DNA of 64,000 bases from Synechococcus sp. RedBA-s. GTDB taxonomy: Bacteria; Cyanobacteriota; Cyanobacteriia; PCC-6307; Cyanobiaceae. The notes below the pieces were generated by a model. It did no database searches. It was not told the origin of the DNA and saw nothing but the letters and a program-made list of their open reading frames with translations. The position numbers and the translations under genes are program-made. Of this stretch, positions 16,652-54,562 are shown in pieces; the first letter of the stretch is position 1, and each line of letters begins with the position of its first letter. The stretch is taken from positions 1 to 64,000 of the forward strand of contig NZ_JAGQBF010000016.1 in assembly GCF_024345495.1 (NCBI RefSeq), in the 5' to 3' direction.

Positions 16652-18750
<2,099 letters not shown>

Positions 18751-18751
<1 letters not shown>

Positions 18752-20595: not shown

Positions 20596-21483
20596 GTGAC
20601 CTCTCCCCTCAAGCTCCGGCAGGTGCTGGGCCTGGGGCTCGCCGGCTTGGGTGCGGCGCGGCTGGCCTCCCGCGGCGGCGCGGCTGATCTGGAGCTGGTG
20701 GCCCGTGCCACGCGGGGCCTGCTTCCCGGTGGCCCCGCCACGATGCTCACCTACAACGGCCGCTCGCCCGGCCCTCTGCTGGAGGTGAATGCCGGCGATC
20801 AGATGCGGCTCCTCCTGCGCAACGACCTCAAGGAGCCCACCAACCTGCACTTCCACGGGCTGCGCATCTCCCCCACCGGATCAGGCGACAATGTGTTCCT
20901 GTGCGTCCCGCCCGGCGGGTCCACCACCTACGCCTTCAAGCTCACTGCCGACCATCCGGCCGGCCTCTTTTTCGCGCACCCCCATCACCACGGCCACATG
21001 GCCGATCAGGTGTTCACAGTTCTCGGCGGCACCCTGCTGGTGCGCGGTGATCTCAACCGAATTTCTGAAGTAGCGGCTGCCAGTGAAGCCGTGCTGGTGC
21101 TCAAGGATTTCGCCAGCGCAAGCGCCGCCGTCACAGCTGAAGCCGGCATGGGCCTCGTTATCAATGGCCAGCCCTTCGATCCCGATCGCATCGACACCTG
21201 AGTTGCCCTCGGAAGCACGGAAGACTGGCTGATCGTCAACGACGACGTGATGGATCACCCCGTCCATCTGCACATCAATCCCTTCCAGGTGATCAGCCGT
21301 GATGGCCGCCCCGAAGCCCAGCGCCGCTGGAAGGACATGGTGCTGATGAAGGCGGGCGAGGAGGTGCGAATCCGGGTGACGTTCCGGGATTTTCTGGGGC
21401 GTACTTTTTATCACTTCCACAACCTCGATCACGAGAATCTGGAGATGATGGGGATGCTGCAAATCGATACCCCTACCGGCTGA
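20596..21483 (+). pseudogene. Multicopper oxidase, internally deleted and interrupted
   Basis: The first cupredoxin domain is good: TNLHFHGLRISP and FAHPHHHGHMADQVF hold type 2/3 copper histidines. After VLVLKDFAS the second domain (roughly 150-200 residues in relatives) is missing, and the text jumps to GMGLVINGQPFDPDRIDT. There a TGA (21199-21201) stops translation where relatives have Arg (CGA). The same frame continues VALGSTEDWLIVNDD, HPVHLHINPF and FYHFHNLDHENLEMMG. In that last motif the type 1 copper Cys of HCHxxxH is Phe. Three independent lesions mean no working oxidase. It would have been a periplasmic cuprous oxidase-type enzyme for copper tolerance. Confidence 0.88.
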
Positions 21484-21623: not shown

Positions 21624-22436
21624 CTACCCGCCGACGTTAAGCAAACGATCGAGCCGTAGTTGATGGTCGGCGCTGGTGAGCCGCCTGTAGGCCAGGCCAA
21701 CGACTCCGAACACCCCCAGCGCCGTCGCCGAAGCGATCATGAACAGGATCACGATCTGGTAGCGAACGGCCGCCTCCGGCGCCGCCCCCTGGAGGATCTG
21801 GCCGGTCATCATCCCCGGCAGGCTCACCAGTCCCATCACCATCATCGAGTTGATCGTCGGGATCATCGCCACGCGGATGGCGTCACGCACCACCTCCTGG
21901 CAGGCCTCCCAGCGGGTCGCTCCCAGGGCCAGGGCTGTTTCCACCCGATCGCGCCCGGTGCGCAACCCCTCCATGAAGCGATCGAGCCCCAGGGAGATGC
22001 CGTTGAGCGTGTTGCCCAGCACCATCCCGAGCAGGGGGATCAGATATTGGGGGTCATACCAGGGCTGGGGCTGGATCAGCCCTGTCACCGCCAGGCCAGT
22101 CACCAGCGCGGAGGAGGCCATCACCGCCAGCAGGCTATTGAGGTAGATGCCAACGAAGCGGCGCCGGGTGCGCTGAACGGCCGAAACCCCTGCAATCATG
22201 GCCATCGCCGCCCCCACCAGCACGATCAGCGGCGCATTGTCTTGGCGGAACAGCCACTCGAGCACGTAGCCCACCAGCAGCAGCTGCACCACCATGCGCA
22301 GGGAGGCCACCAGCAGGCTGCGGGCCAGGCCCAGGCGCAGCGCCACCGAAAGCCCGACGTTCACCAGGATCAGCAGGGCGGAAAGCGCCAGGCGGCCATC
22401 GCTGATCGTCAGGGCTCCGGAACTTAAGGGGGTCAT
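21624..22436 (-). CDS. fetB: FetB-type (UPF0014) ABC permease
   Basis: 270 residues, about seven membrane segments. Family blocks: VASLRMVVQLLLVGYVLEWLF near the start, LIPLLGMVLGNTLNGISLGL and ALALGATRWEACQEVVRDAI in the middle, and MVMGLVSLPGMMTGQIL. This is the UPF0014/FetB (YbbM) iron-export permease. ATG 22436 overlaps the fetA stop (ATGA) and replaces a longer in-frame start. With FetA it forms an ATP-driven exporter implicated in iron homeostasis and oxidative-stress resistance in E. coli. Its place at the end of the copper block fits a metal-homeostasis cluster. Confidence 0.88.
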   Translation of the reverse strand: MTPLSSGALTISDGRLALSALLILVNVGLSVALRLGLARSLLVASLRMVVQLLLVGYVLEWLFRQDNAPLIVLVGAAMAMIAGVSAVQRTRRRFVGIYLNSLLAVMASSALVTGLAVTGLIQPQPWYDPQYLIPLLGMVLGNTLNGISLGLDRFMEGLRTGRDRVETALALGATRWEACQEVVRDAIRVAMIPTINSMMVMGLVSLPGMMTGQILQGAAPEAAVRYQIVILFMIASATALGVFGVVGLAYRRLTSADHQLRLDRLLNVGG

Positions 22437-23083
22437 GGGCGGAGCTCCAGGGTGCGGGTGGCGAAGCGTTGAATCTGCTCGCTGTCGTGGCTGGTGAACA
22501 TCGCGGCGCGCTGGCCTGCAGCGAGCCACTCGATCAGCAGGGTCTCGAGCGCGGCAGAGGTGGCCCCATCGAGGGAGGCGGTGGGTTCATCCAGCAGCAG
22601 CACGGTGGGATCGAATTGCAGGGCCCGCAGCAGCGCCATCAGCTGCAGCTCGCCGCCAGAGAGCCGCTCGGCGTCGTAGGCCAGGAACGATGGATCGCGC
22701 CCCAGGGCTGCCAACCATTCCTTGATCCGCTCGCGCCGCCAGCCCCCACGCCCGCGCAACTCCTGGAATGTCCAAGGCGAGCGCAGGTTCGCCTCCACCG
22801 TGCCCCCATGGGCGACGGGCCCCTGGCTGAGATAAAGCACCATCGAGCGCCAGCGGGGTAAACCCCAGGATGTTGGCGTGCGCCCCTGCAGGCTGATCGT
22901 CCCGTCCTGAAGAGGATCGAGCATGGCCAGGGCGCGCAGTAACAAGGTCTTGCCCGCCCCCGAGGGCGCCACCAGCCCCAGGCGCTCACCGGCGGCCAGC
23001 TCCAGATCGAGCTGGCTCCAGAGGAGTCGATCCCCCAACTGACGCTTGAGCTCCGTGGCGCGTAGGAGCAGTGGGCGGTCCAA
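22433..23083 (-). CDS. fetA: FetA-type ABC ATPase
   Basis: 216 residues. Walker A reads APSGAGKT (near residue 40), the Q-loop region VLYLSQGPV, the signature LSGGELQ, Walker B VLLLDEPTASLD and the switch His in MFTSHDSEQIQRF. All are intact apart from Ala for Gly at the first Walker A position. Short single-domain ATPases of this type pair with UPF0014 permeases, and fetB overlaps its stop by four bases. The 5' end overlaps the pterin dehydratase frame by 98 bases, which is unusual and suggests that the dehydratase 3' end has drifted. Confidence 0.88.
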   Translation of the reverse strand: MDRPLLLRATELKRQLGDRLLWSQLDLELAAGERLGLVAPSGAGKTLLLRALAMLDPLQDGTISLQGRTPTSWGLPRWRSMVLYLSQGPVAHGGTVEANLRSPWTFQELRGRGGWRRERIKEWLAALGRDPSFLAYDAERLSGGELQLMALLRALQFDPTVLLLDEPTASLDGATSAALETLLIEWLAAGQRAAMFTSHDSEQIQRFATRTLELRP

Positions 23084-23878: not shown

Positions 23879-26023
23879 ATGTACTTACTGAGCCATTTGA
23901 GCATCAAGTCAAAGCTAATCTTGATGTTGCTCGCTGTCAGCGGATTTTCAATCTTTGTAACCGCCGCACTTGGCTATCGGAGCGGCAAAGACAATCTCAC
24001 TAGCCGTGTATCCAATCAACTGACCAGTGTTAGGGCCTCTAAGGCGCACCAGATTGAGTCCTATTTTAACACCATTCGAAATCATACTCAGACCCTCAGT
24101 GAAGATCCGTCGATAATATCTGCAGTTCAAGAGTTTTCTGCGGCATACAAGCAGTTGGACGAAACCTCATTATCAAAGGAAGCAGACCGGAAGCTATCAG
24201 ACTACTACGCTCAGAACTTCCTGCCGCGTCTCATGCAGGGCCGCTCGGGAACACCGATTCTGCAGTCTTATCTACTTAAGCCGCCAGCTTCCCAATATCT
24301 TCAGTTTCAATACATTGCTGCCAATTCCAATCCAGTTGGCAAGAAGCAACTTCTCTACAAAGCTTCTGACAGCAGCGCCTATTCGAAGGTACATGCTACT
24401 TACCATCCAATCTTCCGTAACATAATCGAGCGATTCGGATATTATGACATGTTTCTGATCAATCCAGAAGGAACAATCGTCTACACTGTCTTCAAAGAAA
24501 CTGACTTTGCTAGCAATCTTTTAAGCGGACCCTATAAAGCCACAAACCTCGCGAATCTTGTGCGAACAGTGATGGATTCAAAGGAGCAGAAGTACACCAG
24601 GCTCGTAGACTTTGCGCCCTATGCACCATCCTATGATGCCCCCGCTGCATTCATCGCTGCGCCTATCTATAGAGGATCTGAGCTGATAGGAATCCTGGCG
24701 TTTCAGATGCCGGTGAACGAAATCAACAATGTGATGACAGGTAATCGTAACTGGAAGGAAGATGGTCTCGGCAACTCTGGTGAAACCTACTTGGTCGGGA
24801 ATGACCAGCTGATGCGGTCAATTTCAAGGTTCTTGATCGAAGATCCTAAGGCTTTTTTTGCTAATCTTCGTTCGCTGAACATCAATGAAGATATAATAAA
24901 AAGAATTCAGCGATTTGATACCACAATCCTTCAGTTGCGGGTTAATACACAGGGAGTCAACCAGGCTCTGTCTCGACGAAAGGGTACAGAAGTAATTAAG
25001 GACTATCGAAATATACCCGTTCTTAGCTCATTCGCTCCACTCAAGATTAAGGATCTGGATTGGGTAATTCTTGCCGAGATGGACCTGGACGAGGCCTATG
25101 CACCAATCCACTCTTTTCAGCGCCAGATACTGATTTCGGCAACACTCTTGATCCTGCTCACTACGTTGGTGGCGATGTGTCTCGCACACTTCTTCGTGAA
25201 ACCGATCAATGCTCTGATCAGTAGTGCCCGCAAGGTATCAACTGGCGAGCTGGAGTCGATCCCCACCCTGGAAACCGGAGATGAGTTTGGTGAACTCGGT
25301 CGTTCGTTCAATTCGATGCTGCACAGCTTGCGATCCCAGCGAGTACTGGTCGAACAAAAGAGCCAGGAAAATGAGCGCCTTCTCCTGAGCGTATTTCCGG
25401 CAGCCATATCCCGTCGCCTACAGCTCGGCGAGAAGCAAATCGCCGAAGATATTTCTAATGTAGCAGTGTTGTATATGCAAGTCACAGGATTTTCAGAGCT
25501 GGCCGCATCCCTAAGTGCTTTCGAATCAGTTGCAATCCTCAATGATCTAGTTTCATCATTCGATGATATTGCACTCAGTCATGGTATCGAAAAGATCAAG
25601 ACGATTGGCGATCGTTACCTGGCAGTTTGTGGCTTATCCACCCCGTATCTCGATCATGACAGGCGAGCTGTAGACTGTGGTGTCGAGATGTTTGGTGTGA
25701 TCCGCCGCTTTAATCTAGAGCGTAGTTTTCACCTTGATTTAAAAATTGGCATCGACTCCGGCGACATCGCAGTTGGCATCGTTGGCAAGAGCAAGGTGGT
25801 TTATGACGTCTGGGGGAAAACCATGAATCTCGCTGTCGCGCTAAAGGATGCATGTCCACCAGGTTCAATTCTTGTTTCGCAGACTGTGCATCATCGCCTC
25901 GAAGATCTTTATCCCTTCGAAAAACTCGACAAGGTTCCTGATCATGAGCCAATCACACTCAGTGCCTGGTGGCTGAATGGCACCGTGATGCCTGTGGCAA
26001 CCGAGCCTGGCGAGCGCTCCTGA
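23879..26023 (+). CDS. Membrane sensor with HAMP and degenerate class III cyclase domain
   Basis: 714 residues. Membrane helix at about 7-30, a large extracytoplasmic double-Cache-like sensor to about 415, a second helix (ILISATLLILLTTLVAMCLA), a HAMP segment (KPINALISSARKVSTGELES) and a cyclase homology domain from about 515. Aligning to mammalian cyclase numbering, the first metal Asp is Gln534 (LYMQVTGFS instead of F-A-D-I). The second metal Asp is kept (Asp578, KTIGDRY), exactly 44 residues on as expected. The adenine-recognising Asp643 and Asn650 are kept seven apart, but the transition-state Arg is Ala654. Loss of one metal Asp and the Arg argues against cyclase activity. The stop overlaps the channel gene start (TGATG), so the two are translationally coupled. 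Confidence 0.85.
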   Translation: MYLLSHLSIKSKLILMLLAVSGFSIFVTAALGYRSGKDNLTSRVSNQLTSVRASKAHQIESYFNTIRNHTQTLSEDPSIISAVQEFSAAYKQLDETSLSKEADRKLSDYYAQNFLPRLMQGRSGTPILQSYLLKPPASQYLQFQYIAANSNPVGKKQLLYKASDSSAYSKVHATYHPIFRNIIERFGYYDMFLINPEGTIVYTVFKETDFASNLLSGPYKATNLANLVRTVMDSKEQKYTRLVDFAPYAPSYDAPAAFIAAPIYRGSELIGILAFQMPVNEINNVMTGNRNWKEDGLGNSGETYLVGNDQLMRSISRFLIEDPKAFFANLRSLNINEDIIKRIQRFDTTILQLRVNTQGVNQALSRRKGTEVIKDYRNIPVLSSFAPLKIKDLDWVILAEMDLDEAYAPIHSFQRQILISATLLILLTTLVAMCLAHFFVKPINALISSARKVSTGELESIPTLETGDEFGELGRSFNSMLHSLRSQRVLVEQKSQENERLLLSVFPAAISRRLQLGEKQIAEDISNVAVLYMQVTGFSELAASLSAFESVAILNDLVSSFDDIALSHGIEKIKTIGDRYLAVCGLSTPYLDHDRRAVDCGVEMFGVIRRFNLERSFHLDLKIGIDSGDIAVGIVGKSKVVYDVWGKTMNLAVALKDACPPGSILVSQTVHHRLEDLYPFEKLDKVPDHEPITLSAWWLNGTVMPVATEPGERS

Positions 26024-27570
26024 TGAACACGAACAACTTCATTCTTTGGGCGTCTATACTGGCAGTGGGCTTCCCGCTGGTATCTGTTCTGCTCGGCGAA
26101 GCGATTCACCGACTACGTCGGCATGGAGAAGGCTTGGCTGAAATATTGAGGCTGCTGCGCAACTTGATTATTCCCATTTTCATTGGGTTGTTGTTTCTGC
26201 AGCATGTTCTCGGTCTCAGTACCAGCACCCGCATCTTCAAGGGCGGAGAGACAGTCCTCTGGATCTGCATTATTCACGCAGCACTCTCTCTGCTCAACTT
26301 GACTCTCTTTGAGAAAGCAGAAGCTGATACATGGAGATCTAGAGTCCCCAAGTTGTTAGTAGATCTTGCCCGTCTGTTTTTGATTCTTCTCGGCACAGCC
26401 TTCGTTCTGGCCACTGTCTGGGATGCTGATTTAGCCGGGCTGGTGACGGCGTTAGGTGTGAGCTCGATCGTTATCGGTTTGGCGCTTCAAGACACACTGG
26501 GAAGTGTGATGTCGGGTATAGCGCTTCTGTTCGAGAGGCCATTTTTCGTAGGTGACTGGCTTGAGGTGAATGGGGTGGTGGGTCAGGTGATCGATATCAA
26601 CTGGCGTGCCGTGCGCCTGCTGACCCTTGAACAAGAGATGGTTGTGATCCCCCACAAGCTGATCAGTAGTGAAATTATCCGTAACTTCACGCAGCCAACT
26701 CCAATACATGCTGAGCGTATCAAGCTTGGTTTCTCCTATAATGATCCCCCAAATCTCGCTCGACAAGTGCTTAAGAGCACCGCCTTGGAAACTAAGGGAG
26801 TCCTGACCGATCCGGAGCCCAGTGTCTTTACACTCGATTACTCCGATTCAGCGGTTACATACGAGGTTAAGTTTTTCATCCGAGACTATGCCGACATTGA
26901 AAATATCCGTGAGCGATTTATGACCAGAGTATGGTATGCCGCCAAGCGGAGTAATCTTTCAATCCCTTTTCCGATTCGTACTCTCTACCACTTCAATGGC
27001 CCATCGTCTCAGCAGAAGGGGATTTCCAAGAAGTTCGCAGAAAGCTTGCAGGCTCTACCGTCCTACGTGCCGCTCAACAAGGAGCAGGAAATGATGCAGG
27101 CTCCTTCCATGGGTATCTCCCTTCAGCATTTTGCCGCTGGGGAGAAAGTGGTGCGTCAAGGCCATTCTGGGAATGCACTTTACATCATTGTTTCAGGCCA
27201 AGCAGTGATGTCCACCTCCGATACCCATAACCTGGATCGGGAGGTACTCTCATTGCGATCTGGTGAGTTCTTCGGTGAGATGGCCTTGTTCTCGGGCGAT
27301 CCTAGCTCCGTCACGATAACGGCACTTTATGACCTTGAAGTGATGAAAATATCTGCTCAAGTGGTCAACCAGATGATCGATCGCCAGCCCAGCTTTGCCC
27401 GTGAAATAGGTCATATTCTTGAGATCCGACGTCGCGCTATCCATGAGGCCTCACTACTCCAAGAGAAATCAAGCCAGCAAGTCAATACTACTTCGCAGGG
27501 CCCAAAGCCAGATGAAACGTATGGCAACTCCATTGGCCATGGGCGTTTTGAAGTTAGCCAAGGAAACTGA
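26023..27570 (+). CDS. MscS-family channel with C-terminal cyclic-nucleotide-binding domain
   Basis: 515 residues. Three or four membrane helices, then the MscS pore and beta domain: LGVSSIVIGLALQDTLGSVM (about 142-161), FVGDWLEVNGVVGQVIDINW and VVIPHKLISSEIIRNFT. A CNB fold occupies about 365-480: FAAGEKVVRQGHSGNALYII, then FFGEMALFSGDPSSVTITA. This is the architecture of bacterial cyclic-nucleotide-gated (bCNG) channels. In the phosphate-binding cassette the usual PR(A/T)A reads PSSV, so the Arg that contacts the cyclic phosphate is Ser. Ligand binding may be lost or changed. The upstream partner overlaps by one base. AT-richer than the surrounding chromosome, suggesting the pair moved together. 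Confidence 0.87.
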   Translation: MNTNNFILWASILAVGFPLVSVLLGEAIHRLRRHGEGLAEILRLLRNLIIPIFIGLLFLQHVLGLSTSTRIFKGGETVLWICIIHAALSLLNLTLFEKAEADTWRSRVPKLLVDLARLFLILLGTAFVLATVWDADLAGLVTALGVSSIVIGLALQDTLGSVMSGIALLFERPFFVGDWLEVNGVVGQVIDINWRAVRLLTLEQEMVVIPHKLISSEIIRNFTQPTPIHAERIKLGFSYNDPPNLARQVLKSTALETKGVLTDPEPSVFTLDYSDSAVTYEVKFFIRDYADIENIRERFMTRVWYAAKRSNLSIPFPIRTLYHFNGPSSQQKGISKKFAESLQALPSYVPLNKEQEMMQAPSMGISLQHFAAGEKVVRQGHSGNALYIIVSGQAVMSTSDTHNLDREVLSLRSGEFFGEMALFSGDPSSVTITALYDLEVMKISAQVVNQMIDRQPSFAREIGHILEIRRRAIHEASLLQEKSSQQVNTTSQGPKPDETYGNSIGHGRFEVSQGN

Positions 27571-51847: not shown

Positions 51848-54562
51848 TCAGCTCTGCAGCGAGCGCATCAGGCTCTGGAGGTGGCGGCTCTCCAGTTGCA
51901 GCACCCGCCGGGCAAAATCGGGGTCACGCTCCAGCACCGCATCGAAGCCATCCACGGGCACCGCCAGCAGCCGTGTCCCCTCCTCTTGGGCCACGATCGT
52001 GTTCTCCGAGGCGCTGTGGCTGAGCACCTCCAGCTCATCGAGCACCATGCCGGGGAGCAACGGCTCCAGGCGAAGGCCATCGGCCTCCTGGTAGCGAACC
52101 GCCGCCCGCCCCGCGATCAGCAGCAGCAGTTCGCGGCAGGTGTCACCGGTTTCAGTGATCAGCTCCCCGGCGCCGAAGCGGCGCAGCTGCGAGACCGCCG
52201 CCAGCTGCTCCAGGCTGGCGTGGCTGGTGCCGCTGAAGAAATCGCTGGCGGCCAGGTGAGCCCGCATTTCCAGCTCCGGCAGATCCTCGAGCTCGGGCAG
52301 CGGCGCTTCGGGCGGGCCCACAACCTTGAGCACCTCCGCCAGGGGCACGGGCGCGGTGGCGGGATCGAGGCCACTGGCCAGCAGGCGGGCATGGTTGGGA
52401 TCAAGCCGTGCCAACAGGAATAGTGCAGCGGCCCGCAGAAGCGGTGTGCGCTCCTGCAGCAGATCTTCCAGGCTGGAGAGGGTGGCGGCGAGGGGACAGG
52501 CCGGCGGCTCCTCCGCGGCAGCTGGCGGCTCCTGTTGCAGGAGCGCCAGCACGGGCGCTGAGAGTTGTCGCTCCCAGCCGCCCTCGGCCAGCACCACGGG
52601 CAGGTTCACCGGCCTCAGGGCGTGAAGCCTGGAGGCCCACTCCAGCGCTTCCGGCTGCTCCTTCAGCTCAGCCAGAACGCTGAGCATGGCGCGCACGCTC
52701 AGATCCTTTCGCTGCAACAGGGAATCAGCGAGCAGATCACGCACCAGCGGCTGATCCGCCAGCACCGGCTGCAAGAGGCTCAGGCGGACCTGTCTCAGCT
52801 CGGAGAAGCGCGACAGCATCGCCTCCAGCTTCTGCAGGGCCGAGATGCTGGGGTCCAGACCCTCGAGCACGCTGGCCGCTTCATCCGGGCTGATCGAATA
52901 CTGATTGCGCAGGCTTCGGATCACCTCGGGATCGGCCTGACGGCTCTTGAGCAGCATCAGCCGTTCCAGGGATTTGCTGTAGCCGCTGAGGCGCACCTGA
53001 TCCTCGAGGCTGCGGCGACCGTCGGGATCGAGCAGGTCGGGGTTCTCCACACCCACCGACTCGAGCAGCAGGCTGTGTTCCTCGTCGCTGATGCCGATCT
53101 CCCGGCGCATCTGGCTCAGCACCTCCAGACTGCTGGAGGCGTTGGCGTAGCCCTCCTGGAGCGCCTCCCTCACTACCTCCTTGTACACCTGCTGGCGTTT
53201 CTCGCGGGTGAAGGCCGGCAGCACCTTGGCGAGCACGTAGACCTCATGGGGGCTGAGGTCGGCCAGCTGGCGGCCATCGAGGTAGCGCCCCACATCGAGA
53301 TCGAGCTTCTCCAGCTGGCGGCGGAAGCGGCTGGCCAGGTTCTCGCGCTGGTGCAGATCGGCGCTGCGCTCCCAGGAGCGGTAGAGCCAGAGGCTGCTCA
53401 CCGCCACCACTACGGCATCGAAGAGGGTCTGCACCCAGGCAGGCAGCAACAACAGCAGGGGCCGGCCAGAGAAAAGAAAGAAGAAGTTGAACACCAGAAA
53501 GGTGGACAGCACGAAGATCTGATGCCGCCCGAAGCGGCCGCTGCGCTCAATCCAGCGGCCCACTCGCACACCAAGCCAGGTGAACAAACCGAGCACCAGC
53601 GGAACCGCCACCAGCCGGGGCACATTCAGGCTCTGGCCGAAGAGGAACAGTCCGGGCCGCAGCAGCCTCGACAACTGATCGCTCTGGCGCAGCCAGGCCC
53701 CCGAGAAGTAGTAGTCCCAGGTGCCGGCGTAGAGGTAGTAATAGAGGAAATAGCCCACCACCAGGCCCACGTAGGCATAGCGCTCGAAGCTGAACTCTCG
53801 GGTGCCAAGCCGAGTCCAGTACATCCTCTCGGCGTCGATGTCGATGCAGGGTTGCTGGCAGGCCACGCAGGCGCTCTGTTCACTGCCGTCGGCTAGCACG
53901 GTGCGGCACATCGACTGGGTGATCGGTTTCTCGCTCAGGTGGGCTTTGCTGCCGAGCAGGCCCGCCGGAGTGGAGTAGACGCTCTGCACCGGCGCCATCG
54001 GGCAGAAGTACTGGCACCAGGCCTTGCCGCCATAGAGCCAGCCCACGCTGATGGCGGCGGCGATTGTGAACAGCAGCCAGCCGGCCAGCACCAGCCGATC
54101 GGCATTGAAGAAGAGGATGCGCCCGCAGAGACCCACGAACAGCCAGCCGAACTGGAGTTGGGGGTAGTGACGAGCCAGCCAGGAGTCGTCGGCCACCTTG
54201 GCCAGCTGCTGGCGGCGCTCACCGGTGCGCGGGTTGACCTTGGTGCGCTGACGCTGCAAGCCCAGGGCCCGGGGGATCTGCGAGAGAAAGGAGAGGGGGC
54301 AGATGCGCCGCCAGAGCTCATGGCCGAAGAGCAGCAGGATCAGCACCGCCGCCGGCACCACCACCCCCCAGAAGGCGGTGGTGCCCAGGGGATAGGGGGT
54401 CTCACTGAGGCAGACGCCCTGCACCGTCACGCAGCCGTCGGGCAGGCGCAGGGGGCTCCAGGGGTGATCCGCCTCGGTGAAGCGCGGCGTCCAGGGGTCG
54501 TAGAAGAGCGAGGCGATGATCAGCAGCCAGGCACTGGTGAGAATCCAGCGGATGCCATGCAT
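51848..54562 (-). CDS. Membrane polyferredoxin fused to helical repeats and a cNMP-binding-like domain
   Basis: 904 residues. The first 450 form a membrane polyferredoxin of the NapH/NosR/YccM kind: several helices plus Cys clusters HELWRRICPLSFLSQ, GKAWCQYFCPMAPVQSVY and SACVACQQPCIDIDAERM that could hold [4Fe-4S] or related centres. The middle is a long helical region with a repeat, seen as MRREIGISDEEHSLLLESVG and LRNQYSISPDEAASVLEGLD, then HEAT-like helices. The last 130 residues are a CNB fold (LRRFGAGELITETGDTCREL; PGMVLDELEVLSHSASENTI) whose cassette lacks the phosphate-binding Arg. TGAGG lies five bases before ATG 54562. It probably passes electrons at the membrane under control of a soluble sensor domain. 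Divergent from the phytochelatin-synthase-like gene. Confidence 0.75.
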   Translation of the reverse strand: MHGIRWILTSAWLLIIASLFYDPWTPRFTEADHPWSPLRLPDGCVTVQGVCLSETPYPLGTTAFWGVVVPAAVLILLLFGHELWRRICPLSFLSQIPRALGLQRQRTKVNPRTGERRQQLAKVADDSWLARHYPQLQFGWLFVGLCGRILFFNADRLVLAGWLLFTIAAAISVGWLYGGKAWCQYFCPMAPVQSVYSTPAGLLGSKAHLSEKPITQSMCRTVLADGSEQSACVACQQPCIDIDAERMYWTRLGTREFSFERYAYVGLVVGYFLYYYLYAGTWDYYFSGAWLRQSDQLSRLLRPGLFLFGQSLNVPRLVAVPLVLGLFTWLGVRVGRWIERSGRFGRHQIFVLSTFLVFNFFFLFSGRPLLLLLPAWVQTLFDAVVVAVSSLWLYRSWERSADLHQRENLASRFRRQLEKLDLDVGRYLDGRQLADLSPHEVYVLAKVLPAFTREKRQQVYKEVVREALQEGYANASSSLEVLSQMRREIGISDEEHSLLLESVGVENPDLLDPDGRRSLEDQVRLSGYSKSLERLMLLKSRQADPEVIRSLRNQYSISPDEAASVLEGLDPSISALQKLEAMLSRFSELRQVRLSLLQPVLADQPLVRDLLADSLLQRKDLSVRAMLSVLAELKEQPEALEWASRLHALRPVNLPVVLAEGGWERQLSAPVLALLQQEPPAAAEEPPACPLAATLSSLEDLLQERTPLLRAAALFLLARLDPNHARLLASGLDPATAPVPLAEVLKVVGPPEAPLPELEDLPELEMRAHLAASDFFSGTSHASLEQLAAVSQLRRFGAGELITETGDTCRELLLLIAGRAAVRYQEADGLRLEPLLPGMVLDELEVLSHSASENTIVAQEEGTRLLAVPVDGFDAVLERDPDFARRVLQLESRHLQSLMRSLQS

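Follow-up and report, generated by a model that had tools for sequence, protein, structure and literature searches.

A co-inherited pair of a sensor pseudo-cyclase and an MscS channel suggests channel control without cyclic AMP

The window, a stretch of 64,000 nucleotides from Synechococcus sp. RedBA-s (contig NZ_JAGQBF010000016.1, positions 1 to 64,000), encodes two adjacent genes on the forward strand, one for a transmembrane Cache-HAMP sensor that ends in a class III nucleotide cyclase fold and the other for an MscS channel with a C-terminal cyclic-nucleotide-binding (CNB) fold (Table 1). The two genes belong to a widespread family of such pairs that make up one functional unit, conserved and co-inherited, and the loss of catalytic and ligand-binding residues in this family suggests a form of channel control by the sensor in which cyclic AMP (cAMP) plays no part. 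In the window protein, the dCache_1 match scores 37 bits, below the Pfam cut-off of 45; the same domain was matched at E<=0.01 in all 46 aligned cyclases of the family, and MS_channel_2nd and cNMP_binding were matched in all 47 family channels checked. The genes overlap by a single base, as noted in a preliminary description of this locus; the longest open reading frame (ORF) of the channel begins upstream of the ATG, at GTG 25969.

The catalytic residues listed in that description, Q534, D578, D643, N650 and A654, were confirmed in the sequence at the class III positions and spacings (44 from the position of the first Asp to D578, 7 from D643 to N650, and 4 from N650 to the Arg position), with K574 as the substrate Lys. 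The domain has no complete metal pair, with Q534/D578 instead of the two metal-binding Asp residues, and it keeps the Asn (N650) but not the transition-state Arg (A654). The absence of the phosphate-binding Arg from the CNB cassette was borne out as well: the cassette, GEFFGEMALFSGDPSSVT, aligned to GDIFGEMTVFAGTPRSAT, has Ser428 in the Arg column. From these substitutions, the cyclase domain is predicted to be probably without catalysis and the CNB probably unable to bind cyclic nucleotides. As controls from the same genome, the other two MscS-CNB channels retain the Arg (LPRSAS and SQRSAT), and none of the four further class III cyclases has lost a catalytic residue (class IIIb pattern DKDTNR). 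Elsewhere in this genome (G000:C2:59000-76000; L079, L084), a cluster of three class IIIb-type cyclases and several CNB proteins includes a canonical Arg-bearing MscS-CNB channel and is likely a genuine cAMP/cyclic GMP locus.

Both proteins are predicted to fold well, with mean AlphaFold2 confidence (predicted local distance difference test) of 85.1 for the cyclase protein and 84.7 for the channel. The modelled cyclase domain matches the mammalian VC1 domain (1azs_A; Z 26.2, 2.4 A over 187 residues) and Rv1625c (Z 24.1); the modelled CNB matches that of the M. loti channel (4muv; Z 17.2, 2.8 A over 137 residues), and the Trypanosoma brucei CNB 6flo is among its other structural matches.

Full-length relatives of both proteins were gathered from searches of cyanobacterial genomes and named genome contigs, and near-identical entries were dropped before the pairs were counted. 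An adjacent cyclase and channel pair is present at 125 non-redundant loci, always on the same strand, with the cyclase gene first in 124 and a gene overlap or a gap of at most 50 bases in 77; the window pair, a Cache-HAMP-cyclase gene followed on the same strand by an Arg-less MscS-CNB gene, has the architecture that defines the family. The divergence matrices of the two proteins are tightly correlated (r = 0.95; as high in none of 500 permutations), and the pairing, strand order and correlation bear out the preliminary reading of the two genes as a coupled unit. In five cyanobacterial genomes, no cyclase lies near the channel in the stretch read, yet a cyclase orthologue is encoded elsewhere in the genome, 4.5 kb to 1.7 Mb away or on another contig; channel and cyclase orthologue are likewise apart in G105.

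By record title, the pairs come from Cyanobacteria and Actinobacteria (Mycolicibacterium, Curtobacterium, Microbacterium and Herbiconiux), both of which include isolates, and from metagenome-assembled genomes titled Gammaproteobacteria, Poribacteria, Saprospiraceae, Anaerolineales, Ignavibacteria/Kapaibacterium and Kuenenia, assignments that may reflect contamination. Within the genus of the window, the pair is patchy, being present in two of the eight genomes among those listed, the window genome counted. Broken copies occur in otherwise complete genomes: the cyclase gene is split at L065 (G255), and both genes are broken at L121 (G526). Furthermore, at L259-L282, only the sensor half (approximately residues 1-500 of the window protein) is present, fused to different output regions, in Bacteroidota, Verrucomicrobiota, Thermoanaerobaculales, Proteobacteria and other hosts.

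The CNB Arg is absent from all 132 channels of the family, with Ser at that position in 100, and is kept in all four unpaired canonical MscS-CNB channels aligned alongside; the actinobacterial channels also lack the cassette Glu, that is, the GE motif. The state of the cyclases is far more varied. All six catalytic residues are found in nine of them, two unpaired (L234 and L239) and seven paired (L059-L062, L211 from Hassallia, L216 from Tychonema and L217 from Oscillatoriales; 7 of the 125 pairs), each of the seven beside an Arg-less CNB. The most common state of the paired cyclases is DKDDNA, in which only the Arg is gone; other Cyanobiaceae have DKDDK followed by Gly, Ser, Ala or Leu (Asn and Arg gone), the window protein and its two relatives at about 90% identity read QKDDNA/E, and entire clades read HNTSYS, STEYAQ, DRSDTA or NRSENQ. 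Within the cyclase domain, the Arg654 column is more variable than 91% of the columns, Asn650 than 70%, Asp534 than 59% and Asp578 than 56%; the best-kept catalytic residues of the family are the substrate Lys574 and D643.

In a cyclase tree built without the catalytic columns, a quick tree with some long branches and a distant outgroup, L234 and L239 are the sister group of all 129 other members (approximate likelihood-ratio support, SH-aLRT, 99); these unpaired intact cyclases are a single lineage with few members, and no Arg-less channel was found in a search of their genomes. Without a root, the tree requires a minimum of 13 changes at Arg654, 16 at the first Asp, 8 at the second Asp, 17 at Asn650 and 9 at Asp643, and a minimum of 5 losses of the complete six-residue set; if regain is disallowed, the losses number at least 9 for that set and at least 22 for the Arg, which may nevertheless have been regained in the L059 clade, whose sisters carry Lys. 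The loss of the CNB Arg appears to have preceded the losses in the cyclase because an Arg-less CNB accompanies even the seven intact paired cyclases; the CNB change is thus old and fixed, and the cyclase losses are later, repeated and lineage-specific. The data fit a history in which an intact sensor-cyclase would have gained its MscS partner once, after or during the loss of the CNB Arg in that partner, with repeated catalytic losses to follow. The preliminary proposal that matching degeneration reflects joint change of the pair does not agree with this order of events, and its suggestion that loss of the cyclase Asp/Arg be correlated with loss of the CNB Arg cannot be followed because the state of the CNB Arg is constant in all family channels. 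By the same token, homologous pairs intact in both proteins, which that description had named as evidence of mere decay, were not found among the 132 channels.

Purifying selection acts strongly on the window pair. In comparisons with the two relatives of about 90% identity (L104 and L105, which have the same Gln534 and no Arg654), the ratio of nonsynonymous to synonymous substitution rates (dN/dS) is 0.08-0.10 for the cyclase gene, 0.05-0.08 for the cyclase domain alone and 0.07-0.09 for the channel gene.

Direct action on the channel is the simplest reading of these observations because fold, pairing and selection are kept despite the lost catalytic and phosphate-binding residues. We put at roughly 0.55 the probability that the pair is a single, cyclic-nucleotide-independent signalling unit in which the Cache/HAMP sensor acts through the pseudo-cyclase, most likely by direct contact, on the gating of the MscS channel. 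The periplasmic Cache domain would sense a ligand or condition and the HAMP domain would pass the signal across the membrane; the cyclase-fold domain, no longer producing cyclic nucleotides, would serve as the output surface of the sensor and alter the gating of the co-translated channel. Docking would most likely take place on the cytoplasmic part of the channel, either the CNB fold, which lacks the Arg, or the MscS vestibule, and the CNB would have been converted from ligand binding to a regulatory or docking domain. R596, where the helix that follows the DH motif begins, and W697, in the last strand, are candidate contact residues because they are fixed in 94-95% of the paired cyclases and absent in the unpaired and outgroup cyclases; D592 was dropped as a pair-specific residue, being found in one outgroup cyclase.

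Several considerations weigh against such a unit. The contact between sensor and channel, like its effect on gating, is one that we infer. Seven paired cyclases retain all six catalytic residues, and some lineages may still make cAMP; loss of the Arg alone lowers, and may not abolish, the activity of class III cyclases. The link between pairing and catalytic loss amounts to one contrast, the unpaired intact cyclases being a single lineage. Finally, the cyanobacterial cassette, GEFFGEMALFSGEPSPV, is well conserved, the ribose-binding Glu included, and could still bind a ligand.

The preliminary description had left gating by direct contact and a different ligand side by side; direct contact is the best remaining reading, and a different small ligand, which we consider unlikely, is its main rival. 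Under this alternative, a small molecule still carries the signal, although it is not a cyclic nucleotide produced by this protein: the cyclase fold would bind or process a nucleotide differently, or the conserved Glu and the cassette of the CNB would hold some other ligand, such as a nucleoside or a metabolite. Glu419 is indeed present in 71% of the family channels, the cassette is strongly conserved in Cyanobacteria, Lys574 and D643 outlast the other catalytic residues, and trypanosomatid CNBs whose Arg is replaced by a polar residue bind nucleosides (PMC10959531), with 6flo among the structural matches of the window CNB. However, the Glu that replaces Ala202 in the trypanosomatid switch is absent (Ala421 in the window) and, with the GE motif missing from the actinobacterial channels too, no single pocket is common to the whole family.

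A slow or unusual cyclase that is active in vivo despite the substitutions, with a CNB that responds to its product without the Arg, is quite improbable: most of the closer cyanobacterial relatives lack the Arg only and seven paired members are complete, but the window protein lacks both the Asp and the Arg, and in many members both metal sites, or almost all of the residues, are gone (HNTSYS, STEYAQ) with the pair retained. Still less probable is a vestigial CNB combined with a cyclase domain that functions as one half of a heterodimer with a different, intact cyclase from the same cell. Class III cyclases are dimers with shared sites, and the genome encodes four intact candidates; judging from the known class III site, however, neither kind of dimer would have a complete site because both sites of a homodimer would be without the first Asp and the Arg, and in a heterodimer one composite site lacks the Arg (A654) and the other the first metal Asp (Q534). 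Such rescue was rejected on these grounds; moreover, the other cyclases are class IIIb-like, and the fixed channel partner would be left unexplained. Mere decay of a functionless pair in the window genome, to which the patchy presence in the genus and the broken copies in relatives (L065, L121) might point, is hardly credible, being effectively excluded by the dN/dS of 0.07-0.10 for both genes against two relatives that share Gln534, along with the open frames and confidently predicted folds.

A gene for a periplasmic binding protein of the PstS-like superfamily (PF12849) lies near the pair in 13 loci, mostly in clades with fully degenerate cyclases. The cyanobacterial genes mostly follow the channel directly (3 bases downstream at L070, with a 4-base overlap at L072), and loci from Anaerolineales and Thiotrichaceae also have such a gene close to the pair. 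The window pair has no PF12849 neighbour, and four PF12849 genes are located elsewhere in the genome. The PF12849 protein is a candidate partner that may deliver a ligand to the Cache domain. Most of the conserved apparent neighbour ORFs around the pairs were antisense shadow ORFs and were discarded. We tentatively extend direct-contact gating, at somewhat less than even odds, to a widespread bacterial class in which class III pseudoenzymes would gate a dedicated MscS channel without a second messenger and, in some lineages, an adjacent periplasmic binding protein may deliver the signal.

Just upstream of the sensor gene, on the reverse strand, is a FetAB-like pair, a UPF0014 membrane protein (21624-22529) and an ABC ATPase (22433-23083). 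A GTG-started frame of 201 aa (20596-21201) with the multicopper-oxidase-like motifs HFHGLR and HPHHHGH ends early and is located near a P-type ATPase gene (16652-18751); it may represent a copper gene disrupted by truncation or a frameshift. The window contains a further CNB domain (51923-52183, reverse strand) inside a 934-aa open frame.

Table 1. Features of the sensor pseudo-cyclase and channel genes in the window, and examples of PF12849 genes at other loci
Feature	Position	Strand	Evidence
Sensor pseudo-cyclase gene, transmembrane (TM) helix - Cache - TM - HAMP - class III cyclase fold, 714 aa	23879..26023	+	Pfam matches, AlphaFold2
dCache_1 match, extracytoplasmic sensor, residues 187-309	24437..24805	+	E 3.6e-9, under curated cut-off
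HAMP domain, residues 435-485	25181..25333	+	Pfam match
Class III cyclase domain, residues 523-687, predicted catalytically dead	25445..25939	+	PF00211 E 5e-36; fold match to 1azs
Gln534 (CAA), first metal-Asp position	25478..25480	+	Sequence and alignment
Ala654 (GCG), transition-state Arg position	25838..25840	+	Sequence and alignment
Stop/start overlap TGATG, one common base (TGA 26021-26023, ATG 26023-26025)	26021..26025	+	Sequence
MscS channel with C-terminal CNB fold, 515 aa from ATG	26023..27570	+	Pfam, AlphaFold2
MscS beta domain (MS_channel_2nd), residues 157-223	26491..26691	+	Pfam, above cut-off
MscS C-terminal domain (MS_channel_3rd), residues 236-314	26728..26964	+	Pfam, above cut-off
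Cyclic-nucleotide-binding fold (cNMP_binding), residues 368-454	27124..27384	+	Pfam, above cut-off; Z 17.2 to 4muv
Ser428 (AGC), phosphate-binding Arg position	27304..27306	+	Cassette alignment
PF12849 genes, examples among 13 loci	L070:9540-10643, L072:1932-3011, L185:5539-6597, L229:5741-6721, L274:3908-4930		

Genes of this kind carry adenylate cyclase or cAMP-gated channel annotations that are probably wrong for most of the family. If the contact is direct, a bacterial transmembrane sensor would be hard-wired to an ion channel through a pseudoenzyme. Because natural cyclases range from intact to fully degenerate beside a partner that stays the same, the loss of a second messenger is open to direct tests. 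A literature search found no study that treats the pair as a cyclic-nucleotide-independent unit or describes its shared loss; the parts are known, and the near-obligate, repeatedly decatalysed sensor-channel module appears to be undescribed in the literature searched.

Among known systems, Pycsar, with its PycC cyclase and CNB effector, resembles the window pair in that a cyclase adjoins a CNB-bearing effector, and there are weak PADLOC matches; however, Pycsar requires an active soluble pyrimidine cyclase, whereas the window encodes a degenerate membrane sensor and an MscS effector, and membership was rejected because the membrane sensor has lost its catalytic residues. The regulatory subunits of trypanosomatid protein kinase A (PKA) have a nucleoside-gated CNB in which Glu in place of Ala202 (PKA RIalpha numbering) makes the switch (PMC10959531). 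Like these, the window CNB has a polar residue, Ser428, for Arg209; unlike them, it has Ala421 at the Ala202 position (sequence GEMALFSGDPSSV), and a switch of this type was rejected because the key Glu is absent. Bacterial cyclic-nucleotide-gated (bCNG) channels, such as Synechocystis Ss-bCNGa, share with the window channel a CNB fold placed after the beta and C-terminal domains of MscS but differ from its family, which lacks the cassette Arg and has a near-obligate sensor-cyclase partner; the canonical members included here are Arg-bearing and unpaired. The window cyclase resembles the class IIIa cyclases (Rv1625c and mammalian C1/C2) in its fold and N-terminal transducer region; unlike them, it has the first metal Asp and the transition-state Arg replaced, and the catalytic positions are poorly conserved in its family.

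The closest parallel is the pair of Rv2435c (a dCache cyclase) and Rv2434c (an MscS-CNB channel) in Mycobacterium tuberculosis, which we take to be adjacent genes of the same architecture. Given that mycobacterial pairs (L241, L247, L261, L263, L265 and L271) belong to the family, this pair, known from cyclase surveys, is probably an unexplained example, placed in the family through these members. Mis-annotation probably extends to the mycobacterial pair, which is counted among the many M. tuberculosis cyclases. In the literature, Rv2435c figures both as an adenylate cyclase with a dCache domain within the cAMP network (PMC4822843) and as one of two cyclases of the mammalian type (PMC3961136). 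The cyanobacterial members have retained the cyclase and CNB motifs more fully than Rv2435c and Rv2434c.

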